A stretch of 64,000 bases of DNA from Diacronema lutheri (Eukaryota; Haptophyta; Pavlovophyceae; Pavlovales; Pavlovaceae), in the NCBI GenBank assembly GCA_019448385.1, contig JAGTXO010000003.1, positions 372,001 through 436,000 on the forward strand, in the 5' to 3' direction. Shown piece by piece: positions 3,412 to 64,000 of the stretch. Within the stretch, counting starts at the first letter, position 1, and each line of letters starts with the position of its first letter. A program made the position numbers and the translations under genes. The notes beneath the pieces are model-generated. The model saw only the letters and a program-made list of their open reading frames with translations, was not told the origin of the DNA and made no database searches.

Positions 3412-4071
3412 GCGCACGTGCCGTTGACAAGGCCCTGATGCGCAAGCTCGGCAATCGCCCGTTCGTTTGACGATGTAGGCGGTGTTACTTACCGCTCGGC
3501 ACGAAAGTTTTGCCAGGCGGAGGGCCGACGTCAGCCTCGGGAAAGCCAGTCGGTCGTCGCGGGCGCAGCTGCTCATCTCGCGACGCGGCATTGCAAAGGC
3601 ACGCGAGCATCAGCAGTTCCTCACCATGCGACTATTGCTCGTCACACAACGTGTTCGCCAAGCGCTCGATGGACGGCAGTCGACGGATTGGAAGGCACGC
3701 CTCGCGTCACGGTGTGCTACGCGTCGGTTAACGTGCGGAAGAGAGCCGTGTCGGAGGGCAGCCGGAGGCAGGCGGTGCGCCACTTGCGCGTCCATCCGCG
3801 ACCGTCCTAAAGCCTGCCTCTGAGATCCATCTGGTCACAGTCGCTGCGCGTCACGAAAGGGTTGCGCTGTCGCCGGCTCTCAAGCGCTTGTGCGCGCTCG
3901 GAAGTGGCGGACAGCAAGTCAGCGGCGACGGAGTCACGTCGGTGAACGCGGTCATGCGCCGGGTGCGCCGCATTGCGGCAGCATGATGACGGCGTGCGTC
4001 CCACGCTTCCGGCAGGTGGGCGGTGACGATGGCACAGTCGCGGAGCGCGGCGTGCAGTGAGCGGCAAGGCT

Positions 4072-6108
4072 CTACTTCTTCTTCTTCTTGCCCTTCTCAC
4101 GACGGCGAGGCGGCGGCGGGCTGGGCGGCGGGCTGGGCGGTGGCGGGCTGGGTGGTGGCGGGCTGGGCGGCGGGCTGGGCGGCGGGCTCCGGATGATAGG
4201 CGCGATGCTCGGCGGCGGCGGGCTGGGCGGCGGCGGGCTCGGAGGAGGAGACGGTGGCGGCGGGCTAGGCGGCGGCGGGCTCGGAGGAGGGGACGGTGGC
4301 GGCGGGCTGGGCGGCGGCGGGCTGGGTGGTGGGCTTGGCGGCGGCGGGCTTGGCGGTGGTGGGCTCGGAGGTGGGCTCGGCGGCGGCGGGCTGGGCGGCG
4401 GCGGAGATGGCGGCGGAGATGGCGGCGGCGGGCTGGGCGGTGGTGGGCTCGGAGGTGGGCTCGGCGGCGGCGGGCTTGGCGGCGGCGGGCTGGGCGGCGG
4501 AGATGGTGGCGGCGGGCTGGGCGGTGGTGGGCTGGGCGGCGGAGATGGCGGCGGCGGGCTCGGCGGTGGTGGGCTTGGCGGCGGAGATGGCGGCGGGCTG
4601 GGCGGCGGGCTCGGCGGCGGCGGGCTTGGCGGCGGCGGGCTCGGCGGCGGGCTTGGCGGTGGCGGGCTCGGTGGTGGCGGGCTGGGCGGCGGGCTCGGCG
4701 GCGGCGGGCTGGGGGGCGGCGGGCTGGGTGGTGGGCTTGGCGGCGGCGGGCTGGGCGGCGGCGGGCTCGGCGGTGGGCTCGGCGGCGGCGAGCTCGGCGG
4801 CGGCGGGCTCGGCGGCGGGCTGGGTGGCGGCGGGCTCGGTGGTGGCGGGCTGGGCGGTGGGCTCGGCGGCGGCGGGCTGGGCGGTGGCGGGCTGGGCGGC
4901 GGGCTTGGCGGCGGCGGGCTCGGTGGTGGCGGGCTCGGAGGTGGGCTTGGCGGCGGCGGGCTGGGCGGTGGTGGGCTGGGCGGCGGGCTTGGCGGGGGTG
5001 GGCTCGGTGGTGGCGGGCTCGGTGGTGGGCTCGGCGGCGGCGGGCTCGGCGGCGGTGGGCTGGGCGGCGGGCTGGGCGGCGGCGGGCTCGGCGGCGGCGG
5101 GCTCGGCGGCGGGCTCGGCGGCGGCGGGCTTGGCGGCGGTGGGCTGGGCGGTGGGCTGGGCGGCGGCGGGCTCGGCGGCGGCGGGCTGGGCGGCGGGCTC
5201 GGCGGCGGCGGGCTCGGTGGCGGTGGGCTGGGCGGCGGGCTGGGCGGCGGCGAGCTCGGCGGCGGCGGGCTCGGCGGCGGGCTCGGCGGCGGCGGGCTCG
5301 GTGGCGGCGGGCTGGGCGGCGGGCTCGGCGGCGGCGGGCTCGGCGGCGGCGGGCTCGGCGGCGGGCTGGGTGGCGGCGGGCTCGGTGGTGGCGGGCTGGG
5401 CGGTGGGCTCGGCGGCGGCGGACTGGGCGGTGATGGGCTGGGCGGCGGGCTTGGCGGGGGTGGGCTCGGTGGTGGCGGGCTCGGTGGTGGGCTCGGCGGC
5501 GGCGGGCTCGGCGGCGGTGGGCTCGGCGGCGGGCTTGGCGGTGGGGGGCTCGGCGGCGGCGGGCTCGGTGGTGGGCTCGGCGGCGGCGGGCTTGGTGGCG
5601 GTGGGCTCGGCGGCGGGCTCGGCGGCGGCGGGCTCGGCGGCGGCGGGCTGGGCGGCGGGCTGGGCGGCGGCGGGCTTGGTGGCGGTGGGCTCGGTGGCGG
5701 GCTGGGCGGCGGCGGGCTCGGCGGCGGCGGGCTGGGAGGTGGGCTTGGCGGCGGCGAGTCTGGGAGTTTGCATTTGCCGACGACAAGCTTCTTGCCGTCG
5801 GCAAACTTGACGACCTCGGTGCACACGTACGGATGGCAGCATGGTTTGAAGATGCTGCACTGCACCTTGCCCGAGACGCACGGCGGAGGGCTTGGCGCCG
5901 GCGCGCTGCGCTTGCACTTGTTCACGATCTTCACCTTGCCGTTCTTCTTCGTGCGCACGATCGGCACGCACATCGTGGGCGCGCAGCACGGCGGCTTGTC
6001 GCCGCCGCAGTTGCCTCTTGATTTGCAGCGGCCCGTCGCTGCTGGTTCGGCCGGGACGTACGCGGCCGTCGCGACGGTGGCGAGCGCGAAGAGGACGAGG
6101 CCGCGCAT
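4072..6108 (-). CDS. Secreted double-knottin / Ser-Pro stalk protein, copy 1
   Basis: The 678-residue product has no named family that I recognise. A signal peptide (MRGLVLFALATVATAA) is followed by two six-cysteine modules. The first is spaced C-x5-C-x6-CC-x4-C-x17-C and the second C-x6-C-x5-CC-x4-C-x16-C, the inhibitor-cystine-knot (knottin) pattern. A stalk of over 500 residues, built of SPPP and SPPPP runs with a 14-residue (42-nt) period, then runs to a basic tail, RRREKGKKKKK. One SIAPIIRS interruption lies near the tail. In green algae such Ser-Pro rods are hydroxylated, arabinosylated wall or matrix glycoproteins (extensin/pherophorin-like), so an extracellular rod with a disulphide-rich head is likely. 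The tail might bind acidic polysaccharide. Function is inference; secretion is well supported. Confidence 0.9.
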   Translation of the reverse strand: MRGLVLFALATVATAAYVPAEPAATGRCKSRGNCGGDKPPCCAPTMCVPIVRTKKNGKVKIVNKCKRSAPAPSPPPCVSGKVQCSIFKPCCHPYVCTEVVKFADGKKLVVGKCKLPDSPPPSPPPSPPPPSPPPPSPPPSPPPPSPPPPSPPPSPPPPSPPPPSPPPSPPPPSPPPPSPPPSPPPPSPPPPSPPPSPPPPSPPPPSPPPSPPPPSPPPPSPPPSPSPPSPPPPSPPPSPPPPSPPPPSPPPSPPPPSPPPPSPPPSPPPPSPPPPSPPPSPPPPSSPPPSPPPSPPPPSPPPPSPPPSPPPPSPPPPSPPPSPPPPSPPPPSPPPSPPPPSPPPPSPPPSPPPPSPPPPSPPPSPPPPSPPPPSPPPSPPPPSPPPPSPPPSPPPPSPPPPSPPPSPPPPSPPPPSPPPSPPPPSPPPPSPPPSPPPPSSPPPSPPPSPPPPSPPPPSPPPSPPPPSPPPPSPPPSPPPPSPPPPSPPPSPPPPSPPPPSPPPSPPPSPPPSPPPPSPPPPSPPPSPPPPSPPPPSPPPSPPPPSPPPPSPPPSPPPPSPPPPSPPPSPPPPSPPPPSPPPSPPPPSPPPPSPPPSPPPPSPPPPSPPPSPPPPSPPPPSPPPSPPPPSPPPPSIAPIIRSPPPSPPPSPPPPSPPPPSPPPSPPPPRRREKGKKKKK

Positions 6109-7593
6109 CTCGTTCTCCGTAGCAGATTTTCGCGCTTCTCACTGCTGCGCTTTGAGCGGGCTATTTGTGTGATGGGGCATTGCCAAGTATACGCGGCTTA
6201 TTATAGCGCGCGACGCGGATCCCATGTGGCATGTGGCCCTGCACGACATCAAGCGAGCACACAGTAGCGCGCTGACTCCTGCTTCAGTTGCAGCAGCGGC
6301 CGAGTGAGCGGTGCCGATGGCGCTGCCGTCGCGTGATCTTTGCAGATTTTATCCCCTGTCTTTGCACTCTACAGTCGCGTGCGCGCACACGCTTGCGCCC
6401 GCCTCTGCAGCCTCTGCCCTTGCCGCTGCAACGCGCGTGAATCGCGCAAGCTTGCGTGAACGAATGCGCAGCTGAAGCTGCAAGCGCATGCATACGGGCT
6501 GCGCTGCTGTGCGTACCGTGCGTGCTCAGCATGCCTCCACCGGGCGCTATGTCGAGAATGAGGCCAGCACCGCTGTTGCGCGCGCGGGGGCACGCGCGTC
6601 CGCTTCGTCAGCCTTGACCACGGCGCGTCTGTCGACGCTCATATTGCGGAGCGCAGTCGGCTCGGCGTCGAATTGCGCCCGTCGTGCATCCGAGCGCTTC
6701 CAAACCAGCGACTCTCTTATGCGAGCGGCGCGAGGCTCGTCTCGCGCGAGAGCTGCCAATCTTGTTCGGCTCTACATGCTGTTACCAGCTCATCTCCGAG
6801 TGAACGCGCTTAGCGGCCAGCCACGTCTGCACGCACGTGCTGTTGACAAGGCCCTGATGCGCAAGCTCGGCAATTGCCCGTTCGTTTGACGCGCGAAGAT
6901 AAGTCTGTCAACAACGCGCGTGCCCCCTCCTCAGGAAAGCCGCGTGCCAGAAGACCATACACGCGTGGGGGTGGCGATTGTAAGGTGGGGGCGGCGATTG
7001 TACGCGGCGTTACCGCTCGACACAAAAGTTTTGCCAGGCGGAGGGCCGACGTCAGCCTCGGGAAAGCCAGTCGGTCGTCGCGGGCGCAGCTGCTCATCTC
7101 GCGACGCGGCATTGCAAAGGCACGCGAACATCAGCAGTTCCTCACCATGCGACTATTGCTCGTCGCACAACGTGTTCGCCAAGCGCTCGATGGACGGCAG
7201 TCGACGGATTGGAAGGCACGCCTCGCGTCACGGTGTGCTACGCGTCGGTTAACGTGCGGAAGAGAGCCGTGTCGGAGGGCAGCCGGAGGCAGGCGGTGCG
7301 CCACTTGCGCGTCCATCCGCGACCGTCCTAAAGCCTGCCTCTGAGATCCATCTGGTCACAGTCGCTGCGCGTCACGAAAGGGTTGCGCTGTCGCCGGCTC
7401 TCAAGCGCTTGTGCGCGCTCGGAAGTGGCGGACAGCAAGTCAGCGTCGACGGAGTCACGTCGGTGAACGCGGTCATGCGCCGGGTGCGCCGCATTGCGGC
7501 AGCATGATGACGGCGTGCGTCCCACGCTTCCGGCAGGTGGGCGGTGACGATGGCACAGTCGCGGAGCGCGGCGTGCAGTGAGCGGCAAAGGCT
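6109..7593. other. Spacer between copies 1 and 2: promoter side of copy 1, 3' flank of copy 2
   Basis: This spacer holds the upstream region of copy 1 and the downstream region of copy 2. The first part is duplicated almost exactly at 9673-10397. About 90 bp above the start codon is an AT-rich patch, CTTATTATAGCG (about 6198-6209), the best TATA-like candidate. Open frames here are short, repeat with the spacer and show no protein signature, so I call no gene. Confidence 0.6.
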
Positions 7594-9672
7594 CTACTTC
7601 TTCTTCTTCTTGCCCTTCTCACGACGGCGAGGCGGCGGCGGGCTGGGCGGCGGGCTGGGCGGTGGCGGGCTGGGTGGTGGCGGGCTGGGCGGCGGGCTGG
7701 GCGGCGGGCTCCGGATGATGGGCGCGATGCTCGGCGGCGGCGGGCTGGGCGGCGGCGGGCTCGGAGGAGGAGACGGTGGCGGCGGGCTTGGCGGCGGCGG
7801 GCTCGGAGGAGGGGACGGTGGCGGCGGGCTGGGCGGCGGCGGGCTGGGCGGTGGGCTTGGCGGCGGCGGGCTTGGCGGCGGCGGGCTCGGAGGAGGGGAC
7901 GGTGGCGGCGGGCTTGGCGGCGGCGGGCTGGGCGGCGGAGATGGCGGCGGCGGGCTGGGCGGTGGTGGGCTCGGAGGTGGGCTCGGCGGCGGCGGGCTTG
8001 GCGGCGGCGGGCTGGGCGGCGGAGATGGCGGCGGCGGGCTGGGCGGTGGTGGGCTCGGAGGTGGGCTCGGCGGCGGCGGGCTTGGCGGCGGCGGGCTGGG
8101 CGGCGGAGATGGTGGCGGCGGGCTGGGCGGCGGCGGGCTTGGAGGCGGAGATGGCGGCGGGCTCGGCGGCGGGCTCGGCGGTGGTGGGCTGGGCGGCGGC
8201 GGGCTGGGCGGCGGAGATGGCGGCGGCGGGCTGGGCGGCGGCGGGCTCGGCGGCGGGCTTGGCGGTGGCGGGCTCGGTGGTGGCGGGCTGGGCGGCGGGC
8301 TCGGCGGCGGCGGGCTGGGGGGCGGCGGACTGGGTGGTGGGCTCGGCGGCGGTGGGCTCGGCGGCGGCGGGCTCGGCGGTGGGCTCGGCGGCGGCGGGCT
8401 CGGCGGCGGTGGGCTCGGAGGTGGGCTTGGCGGCGGTGGGCTGGGCGGCGGCGGGCTGGGCGGCGGAGATGGCGGCGGCGGGCTTGGCGGCGGCGGGCTC
8501 GGAGGTGGGCTTGGCGGCGGCGGGCTCGGCGGCGGCGGGCTCGGCGGCGGGCTCGGCGGCGGCGGGCTCGGCGGCGGTGGGCTGGGCGGTGGGCTCGGCG
8601 GCGGCGGGCTCGGCGGCGGCGGGCTCGGCGGCGGGCTCGGCGGCGGCGGGCTGGGCGGCGGCGGGCTGGGCGGCGGGCTGGGCGGCGGGGGGCTCGGTGG
8701 CGGCGGGCTGGGCGGTGGGCTGGGCGGCGGCGGGCTCGGCGGCGGTGGGCTCGGCGGCGGGCTTGGTGGCGGCGGGCTCGGTGGTGGCGGGCTGGGCGGT
8801 GGGCTCGGCGGCGGCGGACTGGGCGGTGGTGGGCTCGGCGGCGGGCTTGGCGGGGATGGGCTCGGCGGCGGCGGGCTCGGTGGTGGGCTCGGCGGCGGCG
8901 GGCTCGGCGGCGGTGGGCTGGGCGGCGGGCTGGGCGGTGGGGGGCTCGGCGGCGGCGGGCTCGGTGGTGGGCTCGGCGGCGGCGGGCTTGGTGGCGGTGG
9001 GCTCGGCGGCGGGCTCGGCGGCGGCGGGCTCGGCGGCGGCGGGCTGGGCGGCGGGCTGGGCGGCGGCGGGCTTGGTGGCGGTGGGCTCGGCGGCGGGCTG
9101 GGCGGGGGTGGGCTTGGCGGCGGCGGGCTGGGCGGCGGGCTCGGCGGCGGCGGGCTTGGTGGCGGCGGGCTCGGCGGCGGGCTTGGCGGGGGAGGGCTTG
9201 GCGGAGGCGGGCTCGGTGGTGGGCTCGGCGGCGGCGGGCTTGGTGGCGGTGGGCTCGGCGGCGGGCTTGGCGGCGGCGGGCTCGGCGGCGGCGGGCTGGG
9301 AGGTGGGCTTGGCGGCGGCGAGTCTGGGAGTTTGCATTTGCCGACGACAAGCTTCTTGCCGTCGGCAAACTTGACGACCTCGGTGCACACGTACGGATGG
9401 CAGCATGGTTTGAAGATGCTGCACTGCACCTTGCCCGAGACGCACGGCGGAGGGCTTGGCGCCGGCGCGCTGCGCTTGCACTTGTTCACGATCTTCACCT
9501 TGCCGTTCTTCTTCGTGCGCACGATCGGCACGCACATCGTGGGCGCGCAGCACGGCGGCTTGTCGCCGCCGCAGTTGCCTCTTGATTTGCAGCGGCCCGT
9601 CGCTGCTGGTTCGGCCGGGACGTACGCGGCCGTCGCGACGGTGGCGAGCGCGAAGAGGACGAGGCCGCGCAT
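7594..9672 (-). CDS. Secreted double-knottin / Ser-Pro stalk protein, copy 2
   Basis: This 692-residue paralogue has the same signal peptide, the same two six-cysteine modules and the same RRREKGKKKKK tail as the copy at 4072-6108. Its N-terminal 120 or so residues look identical to copy 1. The stalk is 14 residues longer, one repeat period, and differs in the order of GGC-type variants in the DNA, showing that the stalk changes by unequal exchange or slippage while both ends are held constant. One SIAPIIRS motif is present just before the tail. It reads leftward like its neighbours and has its own complete copy of the spacer, so it should be independently transcribed. Confidence 0.9.
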   Translation of the reverse strand: MRGLVLFALATVATAAYVPAEPAATGRCKSRGNCGGDKPPCCAPTMCVPIVRTKKNGKVKIVNKCKRSAPAPSPPPCVSGKVQCSIFKPCCHPYVCTEVVKFADGKKLVVGKCKLPDSPPPSPPPSPPPPSPPPPSPPPSPPPPSPPPPSPPPSPPPPSPPPPSPPPSPPPPSPPPPSPPPSPPPPSPPPPSPPPSPPPPSPPPPSPPPSPPPPSPPPPSPPPSPPPPSPPPPSPPPSPPPPSPPPPSPPPSPPPPSPPPPSPPPSPPPPSPSPPSPPPSPPPPSPPPPSPPPSPPPPSPPPPSPPPSPPPPSPPPPSPPPSPPPPSPPPPSPPPSPPPPSPPPPSPPPSPPPPSPPPPSPPPSPPPPSPPPPSPPPSPPPPSPPPPSPPPSPPPPSPPPPSPPPSPPPPSPPPPSPPPSPPPPSPPPPSPPPSPPPPSPPPPSPPPSPPPPSPPPPSPPPSPPPPSPPPPSPPPSPPPPSPPPPSPPPSPPPPSPPPPSPPPSPPPSPPPSPPPPSPPPPSPPPSPPPPSPPPPSPPPSPPPPSPPPPSPPPSPPPPSPPPPSPPPSPPPPSPPPPSPPPSPPPPSPPPPSPPPSPPPPSPPPPSPPPSPPPPSPPPPSPPPSPPPPSPPPPSPPPSPPPPSPPPPSIAPIIRSPPPSPPPSPPPPSPPPPSPPPSPPPPRRREKGKKKKK

Positions 9673-11157
9673 CTCGTTCTCCGTAGCAGATTTTCGCGCT
9701 TCTCACTGCTGCGCTTTGAGCGGGCTATTTGTGTGATGGGGCATTGCCAAGTATACGCGGCTTATTATAGCGCGCGACGCGGATCCCATGTGGCATGTGG
9801 CCCTGCACGACATCAAGCGAGCACACAGTAGCGCGCTGACTCCTGCTTCAGTTGCAGCAGCGGCCGAGTGAGCGGTGCCGATGGCGCTGCCGTCGCGTGA
9901 TCTTTGCAGATTTTATCCCCTGTCTTTGCACTCTACAGTCGCGTGCGCGCACACGCTTGCGCCCGCCTCTGCAGCCTCTGCCCTTGCCGCTGCAACGCGC
10001 GTGAATCGCGCAAGCTTGCGTGAACGAATGCGCAGCTGAAGCTGCAAGCGCATGCATACGGGCTGCGCTGCTGTGCGTACCGTGCGTGCTCAGCATGCCT
10101 CCACCGGGCGCTATGTCGAGAATGAGGCCAGCACCGCTGTTGCGCGCGCGGGGGCACGCGCGTCCGCTTCGTCAGCCTTGACCACGGCGCGTCTGTCGAC
10201 GCTCATATTGCGGAGCGCAGTCGGCTCGGCGTCGAATTGCGCCCGTCGTGCATCCGAGCGCTTCCAAACCAGCGACTCTCTTATGCGAGCGGCGCGAGGC
10301 TCGTCTCGCGCGAGAGCTGCCAATCTTGTTCGGCTCTACATGCTGTTACCAGCTCATCTCCGAGTGAACGCGCTTAGCGGCCAGCCACGTCTGCACGCAC
10401 GTGCTGTTGACAAGGCCCTGATGCGCAAGCTCGGCAATTGCCCGTTCGTTTGACGCGCGAAGATAAGTCTGTCAACAACGCGCGTGCCCCCTCCTCAGGA
10501 AAGCCGCGTGCCAGAAGACCATACACGCGTGGGGGTGGCGATTGTAAGGTGGGGGCGGCGATTGTACGCGGCGTTACCGCTCGACACAAAAGTTTTGCCA
10601 GGCGGAGGGCCGACGTCAGCCTCGGGAAAGCCAGTCGGTCGTCGCGGGCGCAGCTGCTCATCTCGCGACGCGGCATTGCAAAGGCACGCGAACATCAGCA
10701 GTTCCTCACCATGCGACTATTGCTCGTCACACAACGTGTTCGCCAAGCGCTCGATGGACGGCAGTCGACGGATTGGAAGGCACGCCTCGCGTCACGGTGT
10801 GCTACGCGTCGGTTAACGTGCGGAAGAGAGCCGTGTCGGAGGGCAGCCGGAGGCAGGCGGTGCGCCACTTGCGCGTCCATCCGCGACCGTCCTAAAGCCT
10901 GCCTCTGAGATCCATCTGGTCACAGTCGCTGCACGTCACGAAAGGGTTGCGCTGTCGCCGGCTCTCAAGCGCTTGTGAGCGCTCGGAAGTGGCGGACGGC
11001 AAGTCAGCGGCGACGGAGTCACGTCGGTGAACGCGGTCATGCGCCGGGTGCGCCGCATTGCGGCAGCATGATGACGGCGTGCGTCCCACGCTTCCGGCAG
11101 GTGGGCGGTGAGGATGGCACAGTCGCGGAGCGCGGCGTGCAGTGAGCGGCAAAGGCT
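9673..11157. other. Spacer between copies 2 and 3
   Basis: This is a near-perfect duplicate of 6109-7593 with an offset of 3564 nt, including the TATA-like patch (about 9762-9773). No separate gene is supported. Confidence 0.6.
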
Positions 11158-11455
11158 CTACTTCTTCTTCTTCTTGCCCTTCTCACGACGGCGAGGCGGC
11201 GGCGGGCTGGGCGGCGGGCTGGGCGGTGGCGGGCTGGGTGGTGGCGGGCTGGGCGGCGGGCTGGGCGGCGGGCTCCGGATGATGGGCGCGATGCTCGGCG
11301 GCGGCGGGCTGGGCGGCGGCGGGCTCGGAGGAGGAGACGGTGGCGGCGGGCTTGGCGGCGGCGGGCTCGGCGGCGGGCTTGGCGGCGGGCTTTGTATGAT
11401 GGGAGCGATGCTCGGCGGCGGCGGGCTCGGTGGCGGCGGGCTGGGCGGCGGAGAT

Positions 11456-11486
<31 letters not shown>

Positions 11487-12375
11487 GCGGCGGGCTCGGA
11501 GGCGGCGGGCTTGGCGGCGGCGGGCTGGGCGGTGGGCTTGGCGGTGGGCTCCGGATGATAGGCGCGATGCTCGGTGGCGGCGGGCTGGGCGGCGGCGGGC
11601 TCGGAGGAGGAGACGGTGGCGGCGGAGATGGCGGCGGCGGGCTCGGAGGAGGTGACGGTGGCGGCGGGCTGGGCGGCGGCGGGCTCGGCGGTGGGCTTGG
11701 CGGCGGGCTTTGTATGATGGGAGCGATGCTCGGCGGCGGCGGGCTTGGCGGCGGTGGGCTTGGTGGCGGGCTTGGCGGTGGCGGGCTTGGTGGCGGTGGG
11801 CTCGGGGGTGGGCTGGGCGGCGGCGGGCTGGGCGGCGGGCTGGGCGGCGGGCTCGGCGGCGGCGGGCTGGGCGGTGGCAGGCTCGGCGGCGGGCTGGGTG
11901 GCGGGCTGCGGATGATAGGTGCGATACTCGGCGGCGGCGGGCTTGGCGGTGGCGGGCTCGGCGGCGGGCTGGGCGGCGGTGGGCTTGGCGGCGGCGGGCT
12001 GGGAGGTGGGCTTGGCGGCGGCGAGTCTGGGAGTTTGCATTTGCCGACGACAAGCTTCTTGCCGTCGGCAAACTTGACGACCTCGGTGCACACGTACGGA
12101 TGGCAGCATGGTTTGAAGATGCTGCACTGCACCTTGCCCGAGACGCACGGCGGAGGGCTTGGCGCCGGCGCGCTGCGCTTGCACTTGTGCACGATCTTCA
12201 CCTTGCCGTTCTTCTTCGTGCGCACGATCGGCACGCACATCGTGGGCGTGCAGCACGGCGGCTTGTTGCCTCCGCAACGTCCGCGTGATTTGCAGCGGCC
12301 CGTCGCTGCTGGTTCGGCGGGGATGTACGCGGCCGTCGCGACGGTGGCGAGCGCGACGAGGACGAGGAAGCGCAT
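11158..12375 (-). CDS. Secreted double-knottin / Ser-Pro stalk protein, copy 3 (short stalk, IAPII motifs)
   Basis: The third array member has 405 residues from the Met at 12375, chosen because it directly starts the signal peptide MRFLVLVALATVATAA; an in-frame Met 15 codons upstream would add charged residues before it. The cysteine modules match copies 1 and 2 with a few changes (CKSRGRCGGNKPPCC, KIVHKC). The stalk is much shorter and is broken five times by SIAPIIRS or SIAPIIQS, where the other copies have this motif once. The motifs space the Ser-Pro blocks at intervals of roughly 30-60 residues. Its 5' flank differs from the other units, so it may be regulated differently. It is an expressed-looking divergent paralogue, not a pseudogene: the frame is intact. 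Confidence 0.88.
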
Positions 12376-57696: not shown

Positions 57697-58138
57697 TTCT
57701 CTCCACAGTGATGTTGTTCACTTTGGAACATGTATAGATGGTCAAGCCAAATCCGATCAGGGGCACGATCGAGCGCCCCGAGTGCAGCGCGGGCCATTCG
57801 GAAGGACGTCCTTGTGAGGGAGCTCTTCGCGTTTGGCGAGCGGGGGAGCACGACGCGCAGCGTTGCTGCGGCGGCGTGCGGGCGGCGAGCAGCGGTCGGG
57901 CTGCTCGCGACGAGGCCGGAGCAGACGGCGCCGTGGCCGCCGGCGCAGGTGACGCGCGCCGACGAGCCGTAGCGAGCGTCCGTGATCCGCACGGCGGTTG
58001 GAGCGGGCCGGCTGGTGCGGCGCGCTCGGCCACGGGTGGCGGCGTGCACGGGCGTGCCGAATGCGGTACGCGTCGCCAGCCGCGCGCGACCTGGGCAGAG
58101 CCCGCAAAGCGTCGACCGCTGCGCGGCTCGGCCGTGCG
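57697..58138. other. Region 3' of the Fanzor gene; candidate guide-RNA region
   Basis: No convincing protein gene is seen. This DNA lies immediately downstream of the Fanzor stop on the same strand. In TnpB and Fanzor loci the guide RNA is commonly transcribed from the 3' end of the nuclease gene and the element end beyond it, so the RNA and element boundary would be expected here if the locus is still active. I found no clear terminal repeat. Near 57715-57745 the sequence turns AT-richer. This assignment is inference. Confidence 0.35.
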
Positions 58139-61100
58139 TCAACGCCGGCCGCGCTTCGGCCCGCGCGCGCTGCCGCCGCCGGCACTGGCGCTGGCAGCTC
58201 CGCGGGCGGGGGTGCGGGCGCGAGCGCCGCCGCCGCCACCGTCGCCGCGCCCGCCGCCGTCGTCGCCACCGCCGTCGCCGCCGCCGCCTCCCCCGCCGTC
58301 ATCGTCGTCGTCGCCGCCGCCGCCTCCGTCGCCGTCGCCGTCGCCGTCGCCCTCGCCGCCGCCGCCGTCGCCGCTGCCGTCGTCGTCGTCGTCGTCGTCG
58401 CCCTCGTCGTCGCCCTCGTCGTCGCCGTCGCAGTCGTCGTCGCAGTCGTCGCCCTCGCCGTGCACCATGCGCTCCTCACGCTCCCACACCTCGCCGCGCG
58501 CCCACCAGGCGAGCACGAGGGCAAAGCGCTCAGGCGTCGACGTGGTGTCGCGCCCGGCCGCGTGCGCCGCCATGTCGTGCACGTCGTAGAAGATGTTGCG
58601 CGCGGCGTTGTAGTCGCGGTGCACGGGCTTCTTGCCGCCGTTGCACGCCGGGCAGATGACGAGCGCGTGCACCGTGCGCGTGCCGCCCTTTGCCACGGGC
58701 AGGCGCGGGTTCTGCGCGAGCTCCGCGCCGCAGCGCTGCAGCCTGCCGCCCTTGGCGAGCCGCGGCATCGAGCAGTGCATCGACGTGTACGGCTCGGGCA
58801 CGAAGACGGCCGCGACGCCGCGCCGCCGCAGCTCGCGCAGCAGCCCCACCTGGAAGGCGGGCGGCGCGCCCTTGGGCTGCGCGCCCTTGTGGTCGCGCAG
58901 CCACTTGCCCACGCACACGAGCAGCCGGTCGCGCGTCACGCCGTCGACGCAGTGCGCCGCGATGAGCGCCTCGGCGACGCGCGCCGCGTTGGACCGCCCG
59001 CCGCTGTCGCGCCGCCAGCGCTCCTTCCGGCGCGCCGGCGCGTCGTACACGTGCTCGGCGGCGCGCTCGCGCACCCGCGCGCTCTCGCGGTGGAAGGCGT
59101 GGAACTCGCCCTCGCCGAGCACCTTGGCGCTGTGCGCCTCGCCAAGCCGCGCCTCGTCCGCCTCCACGCTGAACTCACCGCCGCGCCCGTCCTTGCGCAC
59201 GCGCCGCCGCGCCGCGTTGGTCTTGGCCGTCTCGCGCGCAAAGCCCGCGGCGCGCGCGCGCGCGCGCTGCGTGAACTGCCGCCAGACGGCCGCCCGCCCG
59301 ACGTGCGCAGAGTAGGTGGTGATGTTGCCCATGTTCGGGTCGGCCGCGACGACGACCGCCGCCTCGACGTCGATCGCCCGCCGCAGCTCGGAGCCGAGCG
59401 CGACGGCGATGCGCCCGTCCGGCCGGCGCCAGCGGTGCAGGACGCCCGAGCCGCCGGCCGGCGCCTGCGCCTTCGGCACGAGGACGGTCCCGACGGCGTG
59501 CACGGCGACGCCATCTGTCACCACCGACTTGACGGGCTGCCGGCCCGGAAGCGGCACGCGCGGCAGCGGCGCGAGGCCAACCCACGAGCGCCGCGCGTGC
59601 CACGGCAGATCGGCCGGCGGCCGCTCGCGCCCGGCGTAGTCGAAGACGCGGTTGGAGATGTCGAAGCGCGTCGCAAAGACCGCGTACCTGACGCGCACGT
59701 CCGACATCGGCGGGGTGTTGCCGTTTGTGCCTGTCCACCTGATCGGCTCACCATCGTGGTCGCGCAGGTCCAGCGCCTTGAGCCGCGCGCGCAGCTCCTT
59801 GCGCTCGTCGTCCGGGAGCGTCTCCCAGATGGCGTTCGCGGTGAGGCGCACGTTGCGCGGCACCTGCGCGCAGCGCGCGGCATGCGAGCGCGCGGGCGCG
59901 TGACCAACCTGGCCGCGGGGCGGCGCGCACGGCGGCGGCGCGCGCGCTTGGGCGCTCGGCGGCGGCAGCGGCAGCCGCGCCTCGCGCGCACATTGTGCGT
60001 GCGCAGTGGCGCCACATTGTACCGCGGCGGCCGGTCGGTGAGCTGCGTGTACAGGCGCGCGAGCCGGCAGAGCAGCGCCTGCCCCTCGGCCACGTGCTGC
60101 AGGTTGCGGATCTGCACGAGGAAGTAGCGCGTCGTGTGCCGGTCGTAGTTCCACCTATCCGTGGGCGCGCACTTGTAGTCGACCTCGTGGAGGACCATGT
60201 CGGGCAGGTGGCGGTCGAGCGCGGCGGGGCAGCCGACGCGCGCGCCCTCCACGTCGCCGCGCAGCAGCCGCTCGCACAGCTCGCGCACGCGCACGTTTCG
60301 CTGCATCTCGGGCAGCGCGACGAGCGCCTCGTCGCGCTCGACTGCCGCGCGGACGACGTCGCGGAGCAGCCCGTTCACGACGCGCGATGGGTGCATCAGG
60401 CACGCGGTGGACACCTGCGTCGCCTCCTCCCTGAGGATCTCCGTGAGGCCCACCGCGCAGACGGGCTGGACGCCCTCGGCCATCTCGCCGACGGCGCGCG
60501 CCGTCGCCGCCTTGGTCTGCGCGGCGGCTTGCTCGGCGGGCTTGCCTCGGGGCGCTGCACCGTACCTGCTCTCGTCCTTGTGCCAGCCGATGGCCGAGAA
60601 GATCGCACGGACGGTTCCCTTGTCCATCGTGGTCGACGTGTGCACGCTGGTCGACGGGCCGCCCGACGCCGCGCCGACGGCCTGCGCGCTCGCCACCGCA
60701 GCCTCGTCGCGCACCACCTTGTTGATGACGCGGTACGCCTGTGTCGTGAGCCTGTGCACGGCCGCCGCGATGCGCCGCAGCTCCGTCCGCGCACCGGGCT
60801 GCGCCGTCACCGCCTGCGGCCCCGCGTTGAGCGTCGAGCGCTTGACCACGAAGCCCGGGAGCACGCTGCCGCGCGTGCGCGCCGTCGCGCCGCCGGCGGC
60901 GCGCGCGCTCGGCGCAGCGGGCTCGTCCACGCGCGCGCGCTCGACGCCGCGCGCGCGGCTAACGCTCGGCGCGCGCGCGCCCGCGGCGTCGCGCGCGCTC
61001 GCGGCGGCACCCGCCGCGGCGCGCTCGCCCGCGGCGCCCGACACGCCGTGCGCGCGAAGCGGCGCCGACGCCAATGCCGACGCCGCGCCCGCGCCGCCGC

Positions 61101-64000
61101 TGCCGCTGCCCGATCCGCCCGCGCGCCGCTTCTGCTCGTCGCGCGTCTTGCGGAACTGGGCGACGAGGTCGCTGCTCACGTTGGCCTCAGGCTCCCACGT
61201 GTCGGCGCTCTCGTCGTAGCCCCGCCACCTGATCCGGAACTGGAACGTCACCCTCTTGCCCGCCTTGCGGCGCTCGTCGACGACCGCCTCGACCTCGTAC
61301 GTGCGCGCCTCCTCGTCGACGCTCGCGCCCGCCGCGCTCGCGCCCGTGTCCGGCCACCCAGCGACCGTGCCGCCCAGCCTCTCGGCGGCCGCGCGCAGCT
61401 GCCGCTCGCGCTGGGCGGCCGCGGCGCCTCGCGCGACCAGCGCGGGCAGCATGCCCGCGCCGCCCGCGAGGCCGTGCGCGCCGACGCTGGCGGTCATCAG
61501 CGCGTCGAGGCACGCGAACGTTGCGAGCGCACGCGCGCCATCGTCGCCGCCGCGCGGCTGCGAGCGCACGACGGGCGATGGCCGCGGCTCCCCCTCGGCC
61601 GCGAGCAGCGCCCAGATCGCACTGGCCAGCGCGACGGCATGCGCGCCGACCGCGACGGCCACGTCCGCGTCGAGCGGCGCAAAGTCGTAGCGCACGAGCG
61701 CGGCCGGGCGCGAGTCGTCCGTCGGCCGGTCGGCGACGAGCAGCCCGACCGGGCGCGGCGGCTCGCCGGACGGCGCGGCGACGGGCACGCAGAGGAGCAC
61801 GACGAGCAGGCGCGGCGTGCCGCCGAGCAGCGCGCGCGCGGCATCCGCCCCGTCGGCTCCGCCGCGCGCGGCCGCGGCGAGCAGCTCGGCCGCGCGCGTC
61901 GGGCCCAGCGCCGTGCGCGCGTCCTTGCGCGCGCGTGCGCGCGCCGTGTACGCGGCGCAGGCGTCGTCGAGCACCGCCGCGCTGGGCGCGGTGCCAGTCG
62001 TCGCCCACGCGCGCAGCGCGTCGCGCACCCGCGTGACGATCGCCTGGTCGACCGCCGCCTCGCCGGCAGCGTGCGCCGGCGCGCACGCCGGCGGTGCGGC
62101 GGCAGGCGCGAGCGCGGGCGCGCCGTCGGCGCCGTCAACGCCGACGGCGCCGTCGGCGCGCCGCCACGCGAGCTTCGCCTCGATCTGCTGCCGGACGGCG
62201 TGGCAGTGCCGGTCGATGCCGCGCGCGTCGTCGAGCGCGGCCAGCGCGTCCTCAGCGGCGGGACGGCCGCTCGCGTCCGCGACGGCCTGCAGGCAGAGCA
62301 GCGCGGCCGCACGCGCGTTGCACGCGCTCTGCGGCTCGGGCGCGAGCGCGTGTTCGAGCTCGAGCGGCGACGCGCCTCGCGCCGCGGCGATCGCGTCCAT
62401 CAGCACGTCCAACCGCTGCACCAGCGCCCTGTGCGCGTCGCGCGGCGCGCCCGTCGACGGCGCGCGCGAGCGCGTCGCCACGAGCCCGAGCGCGCGCGCC
62501 GGCGCGCCCGCCGGCGTGTGCAGCACGAGCAGCGCCGCGCCCGCCAAGCTCGCGTTGCGCGTGACGAGCGCGAAGATGCGCGTCGCCTCGTGCGCGCCCA
62601 CCGACGCCCAGATCGCAGCGCGATCGGCGTCCGTCTGCGCGTCGCACAGATCGCGCACGTCGTCCGGCGCGAGCAGCGCGCCGCCGCCGGCGGAGCGCGC
62701 GACGATCGCCCGCGCCTCCGCCACGAAGACGGCCTGCGGCAGGTCGGCGTGGCGCGCGTCGACGATGGCGCGCGTCGCGTGCACGCCGAGCTCCACGCCG
62801 CGGTAGAAGGCGCGCGCGTTGGCCGCGCGCGCGTGCGCCGGCCGTCCGTCCGCGTTGCGCCTCGCGCGCGCCTGCTTGCTCGTGCGCGCGAGGCCGTCGC
62901 GTGGCGGTGGCGGCAGCGTAGCGAGGAAGCGCGCGGTGGGCGGCGGCGCGCGCACGCCGCGCTGCCGCCGTGCGATGGCCGCGAGCCGCCGGCCCGCCGC
63001 GCTGCCGCCCGCGCCGACGTGCTGCCAGCGGTTGAGCGCCGCCGGTGGCGGCGGCGGCGGCGGCGGCGGCGCGGCGGCGGGCGGCGGCGCGACGGCGGGC
63101 GGCGGCGCGGCGGCGGGCGGCGGCGCGGCGGTGGGCGGCGGCGCGGCGGCGGGCGGCAGCGGCGGCGGCGCGCCGGCGACGGCAGCACCAGTCGGCTTGT
63201 CCGCCCACGCACCCGAGACGCTGTCCCAGGCCTTGCCCGGTGGCGCGCGCCCACGCGGCCGCGGGTGGCGGGCTCGAGCGGCGGGGGGCGGGCGGCCGGC
63301 GCGCCAGTCGAAGACAGGTGCAACCGTGGCGGCAGGCGCCGAGTGCCGCGCGTCGGTCACAGAGCGCGTGGTGCGCGCGGCGACCGTCGCGCGCATGGCG
63401 GGCGGGCGGTGAGCAGCGCCCGCCGGCGCGCCGGCGGGCGCGGCAGCCGGCGCGCCGGCGGGCGCGGCCGCCTCGAGCCCGGCGGAGGCGCCGCGCTTGC
63501 GCTTGCGCGTGCCGCCGCGCGTGCGCCTGCGCGCGCGCCCGCCGCGCGCCCGTTCGGCCTGCGCGTCGCCAGCCGCGTCGCCGGCCGCGTCGCCGCGCCG
63601 CACGTAGACGACCGCGAACGCCTCCTCGCCGGTCCCGTCGACGCCGCCGCGCGCGCGGCGCAGGACCGACCGCCACTGCAGCCGCCGCGCGCGGCCGGGC
63701 TCGCACGCAAACCAGCGCCCACCGCGCCTGACGACGGCCACAAAGTCGTCGTCGCGCCGCCCGCGCCGGCGCGTGCGCAGCAGCACGCACTGCACGTCGA
63801 GCCAGCCCTCGTGCCAGTCGGCCGTGCTGGGGGCGACGCGAATCGACTGCGGGAGCTCGACGCCAAAGCCGGCGAGGCGCACGATGTGCGCGACGATGAC
63901 GCTCGAAATGGCGGGGGCGCTCGACGGGTCGCCCGCTGCAGCGAGCCCCGCCTCGCCCCAGTGCTCACGCGTGACGCAATCCGCGTCCTCGACGTGCACG
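58139..64000 (-). CDS. Chromodomain-Fanzor fusion (RuvC-fold TnpB-like nuclease), partial at window edge
   Basis: Fanzors are eukaryotic relatives of TnpB/Cas12 that cut DNA guided by RNA. Exons are 64000-59992, still open at the right edge, and 59863-58139; the 128-nt intron (GTGCGC to GCAG, phase 0) joins PLRTHN to VPRNVRLTANAIW. At least 1,911 residues are encoded. The RuvC triad is visible: Asp in VVAADPNMGNITT (59341-59339), Glu in VFVPEPYTSMHC (58795-58793) and Asp in HRDYNAARNI (58615-58613). Cysteines in MHCS, QRCG and CPAC form the zinc ribbon, with a stretched first knuckle. TDGVAVHAVG is another Fanzor block. Upstream in the same frame is a chromodomain (YEVEAVVDERRKAG, FRIRWRGYDESADTWEPEAN, about 61136-61310) and a long Ala/Pro-rich extension with a (PPPAAA) tract (63045-63180). 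The tail is an Asp/Gly run then KRGRR, perhaps nuclear targeting. Confidence 0.88.

Follow-up and report, generated by a model that had tools for sequence, protein, structure and literature searches.

The window analyzed here is a stretch of 64,000 nucleotides from the genome of the haptophyte Diacronema lutheri (C4:372001-436000). Its end contains, on the minus strand, the 3' terminal 6.3 kb of a mobile element (57732..64000) that continues for another 15.2 kb beyond the window, to C4:451196. This segment holds the 3' part of a giant frame that begins beyond the window, at C4:443115, and runs without a stop on the minus strand for 3,865 aa, to window position 59518 (among the three copies read, frame lengths are 3,865, 4,518 and 4,907 aa); its start is thus outside the window. 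In order, the giant frame encodes a putative exonuclease of the RecE/lambda type, a chromodomain and the N-terminal region of a predicted Fanzor nuclease, followed across an intron by the RuvC and zinc-ribbon part of the nuclease. The 3' part of exon 1 that lies within the window (59992..64000, minus strand, as are all features below) includes the chromodomain (61147..61299), an Ala/Gly/Arg-rich linker (60871..61146) with zero in-frame ATG codons, and the Fanzor N-terminal region (59992..60870), which by position corresponds to the WED/REC part and ends with PLRTHN. An intron of 128 nt with GT...AG termini (59864..59991) separates the 3' end of exon 1, ...PPRYNVAPLRTHN, from the 5' start of exon 2, VPRNVRLTANAIW, so that ...PLRTHN is joined to VPRNVRL...; we take PLRTHN/VPRN to be the equivalent of a conserved Fanzor1 stretch. 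Exon 2 (58139..59863, 574 aa) encodes the C-terminal part of the nuclease (the rest of WED, RuvC and the zinc ribbon) and an acidic Gly/Asp tail followed by the stop. The 3' non-coding stretch with the element end ...GACCATCTATAC occupies 57732..58138. Elsewhere in the window, at ~3489-12023, self-comparison reveals tandem repeats, with overlapping 5-kb blocks that are 93% alike and shifted by 3.5 kb, plus many shorter repeats.

One frame with a single short intron

A continuous frame with a single short intron encodes both the chromodomain and Fanzor. Both parts of this claim, made in the original prediction, hold: the frame is stop-free from a chromodomain recognized by Pfam (46.4 bits) into the Fanzor N-terminal region, and the 128-nt GT-AG intron leading into the RuvC/zinc-ribbon part recurs at all loci compared. 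That description of the locus missed the high-copy mobile element as well as its exonuclease domain and PIF1 helicase. Exon 2 is found at no fewer than 96 places in the genome, 98-100% identical (416 candidates, of which 96 were scored), and the chromodomain profile at least at 150 places (260 candidates, of which 150 were scored), with 146 of the 150 among the matches listed scoring 53.7-55.2 bits, the range that also includes four inspected loci of the chromodomain-Fanzor family. Among the matches listed, at least 68 of the 96 Fanzor exons are accompanied by a chromodomain on the same strand at a distance of 1278, 1287 or 1289 nt; 11 of the other 28, including the window copy, were examined and all 11 have one. 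At each of the 20 fetched loci (the best 20 of 96, the window copy among them, comprising 17 distinct sequences), the frame is open from the chromodomain to PLRTHN, the 128-nt intron has GT and AG at its ends, and exon 2 encodes 521-576 aa. Four of the eight chromodomain loci fetched are other genes that lack the DTWEPEA word; the other four belong to the chromodomain-Fanzor family and all keep the frame and splice sites, one of them being a copy already in the set of 20. Given that the frame and the splice structure are kept across loci, the join between the chromodomain and Fanzor is not an assembly accident.

The joined sequence of exons 1 and 2 is also present within an annotated D. lutheri protein, KFE25_006464, the sole named protein match; the genome annotation was produced with BRAKER2 and RNA-seq according to the available part of the genome paper (PMC8379373). 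KFE25_006464 (P0001) is a SAM-domain gene model, the first ~100 residues of which are a Fanzor piece that spans the intron junction; possibly, this piece is an exon captured from the element, or else the gene model is fused. No annotated protein that spans both the chromodomain and Fanzor was detected at E <= 0.001 among the 8,000 candidates scored (the query was the 1560-2022 part of a frame of 2,084 aa).

Long open frames are weak evidence of coding when taken alone because the D. lutheri genome is GC-rich (43,502,671 bp in 103 contigs, 73.25% GC, as given in the part of PMC8379373 available) and antisense frames longer than 1,000 aa (1,154 and 1,759 aa) are open at this locus as well; an open frame was accordingly rejected as sufficient proof of coding. 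The case for coding rests on the domain matches, the splice structure common to 20 of 20 loci, and indels that keep the frame. Between copy A, the one in the window, and copy B, the aligned frame contains indels of 3, 3, 30, 24 and 12 nt and two close indel pairs, 5+1 and 29+4, each totalling a multiple of three; outside the frame, these copies differ by a 2-nt indel in the intron and a 2-nt indel in the 3' non-coding stretch. Third codon positions are not enriched in SNPs among copies A, B and C, so selection is argued mainly from the indels. Across the 20 loci, non-synonymous and synonymous differences number 20 and 14 in the exon 2 core, against a neutral ratio of 2.54, and 33 and 11 in the larger Fanzor N-terminal part, against 2.60; by these counts, only exon 2 leans to constraint.

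The distribution of methionines bears on the strongest rival explanation, namely, that the giant frame encodes a polyprotein or gives overlapping products, such that Fanzor is made separately, by internal start or proteolysis, and the chromodomain does not act together with the nuclease. An ATG at 60627, past the chromodomain, has A at -3 and G at +4, which is a strong context, and a shorter, separate nuclease could start there; at each of the 20 loci, 192 or 240 aa separate the DTWEPEA word of the chromodomain from the first methionine past it. A start at 60627, however, would remove ~80 aa of the presumed Fanzor N-terminus, and this methionine is absent in one of the 20 copies. The window copy contains no methionine between the chromodomain and the Fanzor N-terminal region, and the same holds for the interval from the chromodomain to GSVLPGF in 13 of the 20 loci, those where the GSVLPGF word was found. 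Separate products are further compatible with the unusual size of a protein that exceeds 4,000 aa and with the presence in the element of a domain of the UCH-type deubiquitinases (33 bits vs a cut-off of 23.9; L038:4359-5852), a cysteine protease family. The protein homologs P0011 and P0012-P0015, the latter four from the exon 2 start, are likewise predicted as stand-alone frames, which is the usual behavior of gene callers on intron-containing DNA. On balance, separate production of the nuclease appears rather unlikely, and the reading preferred here is a single giant protein that combines the exonuclease, the chromodomain and the nuclease.

The chromodomain and the nuclease

The segment at 61299-61147 matches the Pfam chromodomain profile (PF00385) with 46.4 bits, compared to a cut-off of 25.1, and its closest PDB matches are the chromodomains of CDYL, CDY1 and HP1, with E-values down to 1.1e-10. 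In the PDB alignment, residues Y, W and Y align with aromatic positions of HP1 that presumably form the aromatic cage of the latter. At the sequence level, these matches confirm the predicted identity of the segment as a chromodomain. Polymorphism does not indicate purifying selection on this domain: the 20 loci contain 14 non-synonymous and 0 synonymous differences in the chromodomain and linker, which are small counts from young copies. The chromodomain could then be a passenger that was caught in the frame and kept by recent descent from one ancestor, with no guiding role. The 98-100% similarity of the exon 2 copies implies that their common structure reflects common descent, as this explanation holds. 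Nevertheless, the match far above the cut-off, the retained aromatic positions, and the single SNP in the 211 nt at the chromodomain vs 26 in the following 1,129 nt between copies A and B all speak against a mere passenger, which we consider improbable compared with a chromodomain that works as part of the giant protein.

For the nuclease, the comparison draws on the available parts of three papers, PMC3627910, PMC10432273 and PMC10711439, which we take to be Bao & Jurka 2013, Saito 2023 and Yoon 2023, respectively. Exon 2 contains the published TnpB/Fanzor pattern, D-X(125,275)-[TS][TS]-XX-C4-X(5,50)-RD (PMC3627910), in the form of D175, a gap of 184, TS360, cysteines 364, 378, 404 and 407, a gap of 8, and RD416-417. 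The RuvC catalytic residues claimed in the original prediction are present, as D175 (59339..59341), E357 (58793..58795) and D417 (58613..58615), the aspartate of the RD. The four zinc-ribbon cysteines (58643..58774) lie within a match to the Pfam TNB profile (PF07282, 28.4 bits vs a cut-off of 26.3, over 58592-58831); the second pair is C404xxC407, but the first is C-x13-C, not CxxC. According to the part of PMC10711439 that was available, a TDG motif in WED and an alternative glutamate six residues before the zinc finger are signatures of Fanzor/Fanzor1. Both are found here: the glutamate, six residues ahead of the first zinc cysteine (E357-PYTSMH-C364), is kept in P0011-P0013, the homologs that reach that far, and the TDG motif (59510..59518) reads VVTDGVAV in the window copy and P0011 and is TDG in P0014 and P0015, SDG in P0012 and VDR in P0013. 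The RuvC-I motif is DPN in the window copy and P0011, DTG in P0012, and DPG, the Fanzor1 form, in P0013-P0015. P0011, an ENA protein from a 2,435-base contig, is 98% identical to the exon 2 protein, and P0012-P0015 are 43-50% identical to it. Relatives in viral contigs were sought by pattern matching, and 0 of the 12 matches encode one.

A search of PDB sequences with exon 2 yields no Fanzor match and only a weak one to Cas12f, at E 0.01 with a profile. Structure prediction of the nuclease module, proposed as a check together with the original prediction, yields a low-quality AlphaFold model for exon 2 (pLDDT 46), so the Foldseek comparison, in which Cas12f ranks first but at E 0.04, is only a hint. 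The motifs are best compatible with the C-terminal part being a Fanzor1-like RNA-guided nuclease for which catalytic activity is predicted.

The 3' non-coding stretch and element end (57732..58138) are a candidate source of an omega/re RNA. In the parts of PMC10432273 and PMC10711439 available, the guide RNA of TnpB/Fanzor elements is described as derived from the 3' end and reading into the flank, and nuclease cleavage is proposed to enable copying of the element by recombination. The last 200 nt of the element fold with a z-score of -2.1, with 5 of 200 shuffles as good, and the 3' end matches no Rfam family. Known Fanzor1 adjacent motifs include CATA and TTAA (PMC11423790, available in part); the resemblance of the TATA-type ends of the element to these motifs is suggestive only.

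The mobile element

The element in the window spans C4:451196-429732 (21.5 kb), and its copies range overall from 21 to 31 kb: copy B (C4:227727-196671) is 31 kb long, with ~8 kb extra in the middle, copy C is 26.5 kb long, and several other copies are near 21.5 kb. The ends, set by aligning three copies and then short flank stretches of more, are TATATAGGGCGCGGTCC at the 5' side (TATATAC... in copy C) and GACCATCTATAC at the 3' side, and each is found at 40 or more places in the genome. Homology stops abruptly, with sharp 5' ends in 22 copies and sharp 3' ends in 21 (1 of these at a contig end), and the flanks differ among the 22 copies, save for a few with a common dispersed repeat end. Among these 22 copies, no target-site duplication is seen, and no clean empty site was identified via one flank repeat, which itself is the end of another dispersed repeat. 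A ~60-base dispersed sequence ending with CGCCGTTAGTATAA (L081-L094) has at least 40 matches besides the query and resembles the terminus of a different repeat family; the 5' end of the Fanzor element directly adjoins it at C27:47960-48030. Contigs C1, C6, C13 and C57, as seen directly, start or stop at the 3' terminus of the element or about a dozen bases from it; C5, C10, C12, C26, C29, C80 and C83 do likewise, as judged by the chromodomain-to-contig-start distance, and several other elements have their 5' part at a contig start. Such breaks at element termini are probably an assembly limit because the longer copies exceed the read N50 of ~24 kb implied in the available part of the genome paper (PMC8379373).

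The putative RecE/lambda-type exonuclease domain is located in the giant frame ~1,100 aa upstream of the chromodomain (C4:436992-436665; also L031:8441-9013). The best match is the PHROG RecE-like profile, which has no curated cut-off, with an E-value of 1.7e-13; the matches to TIGR03033 (3e-6, 27.4 of 68 bits) and to Pfam YqaJ (E 0.0065, 17.2 bits vs 22) are below the respective cut-offs. The window copy contains SPDGL...VEVK (C4:436713-436665), in agreement with D...ExK, which we take to be the active-site motif of RecE/lambda exonucleases (YqaJ). The AlphaFold model of this domain is poorer still than that of exon 2 (pLDDT 36). Near the 5' end, the element carries a PIF1 helicase gene (84 bits, plus Pif1_2B; L038:7976-9361), in the window's own element at C4:447794-448132, with ~300 aa preceding the PIF1 domain in its frame. 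PIF1 is found at 150 or more places in the genome, partly outside the Fanzor element. Two further stretches of the element, P0002 and P0007, look cysteine-protease-like by eye, with no match to such a Pfam family.

No transposase, tyrosine or serine recombinase, DDE transposase, reverse transcriptase or Helitron Rep was recognized by Pfam in the frames scanned, that is, all six of L038, six of L039:4001-8640, and selected listed ORFs of L010, L031, L032, L038 and L039. This result bears on two other explanations. One is an autonomous Helitron (Helitron2) carrying Fanzor, as in Chlamydomonas; Fanzor1 is known from Helitrons (PMC3627910, in the part available), and both the PIF1-type helicase and the lack of a visible target-site duplication would fit. 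However, the element has no match to Helitron_like_N/Rep (PF14214), the only one found in the genome being on C63, and no Helitron1 ends (TC/CTRR); the best inverted match of its ends is 6 bp, equalled in 562 of 2000 shuffles, and the terminal hairpins are unconvincing, with end fold z-scores of -1.6 and -0.4. On these grounds, Helitron identity was rejected, and we regard it as improbable. The other is a chromovirus-type LTR retroelement that adjoins an unrelated Fanzor. Chromodomains are known to occur as accessory domains in polyproteins of LTR elements (PMC6338049, in the part available) and are common on integrases of this type, but reverse transcriptase, RNase H and integrase are absent from the frames scanned and one pair of ends encloses all the parts. 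Contradicted by the missing reverse transcriptase and integrase in these frames and by the common ends, this explanation was rejected and has hardly any probability left.

Proposed mechanism and comparison with known systems

The reading that we favor, at a probability of about 45%, is that the locus forms the 3' terminus of a large mobile element whose giant protein, composed of a RecE/lambda-type exonuclease, a chromodomain and a C-terminal Fanzor1-like nuclease, acts by cut-and-copy with chromatin docking. The 3' non-coding end would yield the guide RNA, with the guide part read from the flank; Fanzor would cut unoccupied target sites, the exonuclease would resect the break, and the element would be copied in by helicase-assisted recombination, following the cut-and-copy model put forward for TnpB/Fanzor elements. 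PIF1-family helicases support recombination-dependent replication. The chromodomain might dock the complex on methylated histones and so bias where it cuts or stays. A bolder version, which is an improbable but attractive extrapolation, would make this a self-contained system of chromatin-addressed RNA-guided homing, in which one giant protein reads a histone mark, cuts a site that matches its guide and resects the break, so that an element of no more than 31 kb, equipped with its own helicase, would be copied into sites through recombination with no classical transposase involved.

The arrangement bears on the question of why transposons carry Fanzors: the nuclease shares a frame with a histone reader and with an exonuclease that probably resects breaks. 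Given this single-frame combination of nuclease, exonuclease and histone reader, the many near-identical copies, the cultured alga and the small genome, the cut-and-copy idea is directly testable. It further points to an exonuclease and a chromatin reader as possible natural partners of RNA-guided nucleases acting in eukaryotic chromatin. As the original prediction had it, no chromodomain-Fanzor was found described in the open-access literature, a scope outside of which lie most subscription papers and preprints; the words "chromodomain" and "chromo" occur 0 times in the available text of PMC10432273, PMC10711439 and PMC11423790.

The closest comparisons are with four kinds of known systems. 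Similarly to the Helitron2 elements CRe-1,2,3 of Chlamydomonas, in the available part of their description (PMC3627910), the D. lutheri element combines a Fanzor1 with a PIF1-type helicase and shows no target-site duplication at full-length ends; unlike them, it has neither a Rep match nor convincing Helitron ends. With chromoviruses it has in common a mobile-element protein bearing a chromodomain, which may direct this protein to chromatin, but in D. lutheri the partner is a predicted RNA-guided nuclease, and integrase and reverse transcriptase were not found in the frames scanned. The Fanzor1 nucleases of eukaryotic transposons, as far as the parts of PMC3627910, PMC10432273 and PMC10711439 describe them, are similar in the published motif pattern, the alternative glutamate, the TDG motif and the intron-split gene within a mobile element. 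The window copy departs from known Fanzor1 in its RuvC-I DPN, in the first zinc pair, which is not CxxC, and in that no transposase was recognized in the frames scanned; moreover, a putative RecE-type exonuclease and a chromodomain precede the D. lutheri nuclease in its frame. PpFz1, a Fanzor1 with an FRI domain that contacts a host cyclophilin (PMC11423790, in the part available), also has an added domain, but as an insertion in RuvC, whereas the D. lutheri chromodomain is located upstream of the whole nuclease. Fanzor1 nucleases in eukaryotic transposons are known, and what appears to be new in D. lutheri is the joining of a chromodomain and an exonuclease to Fanzor.
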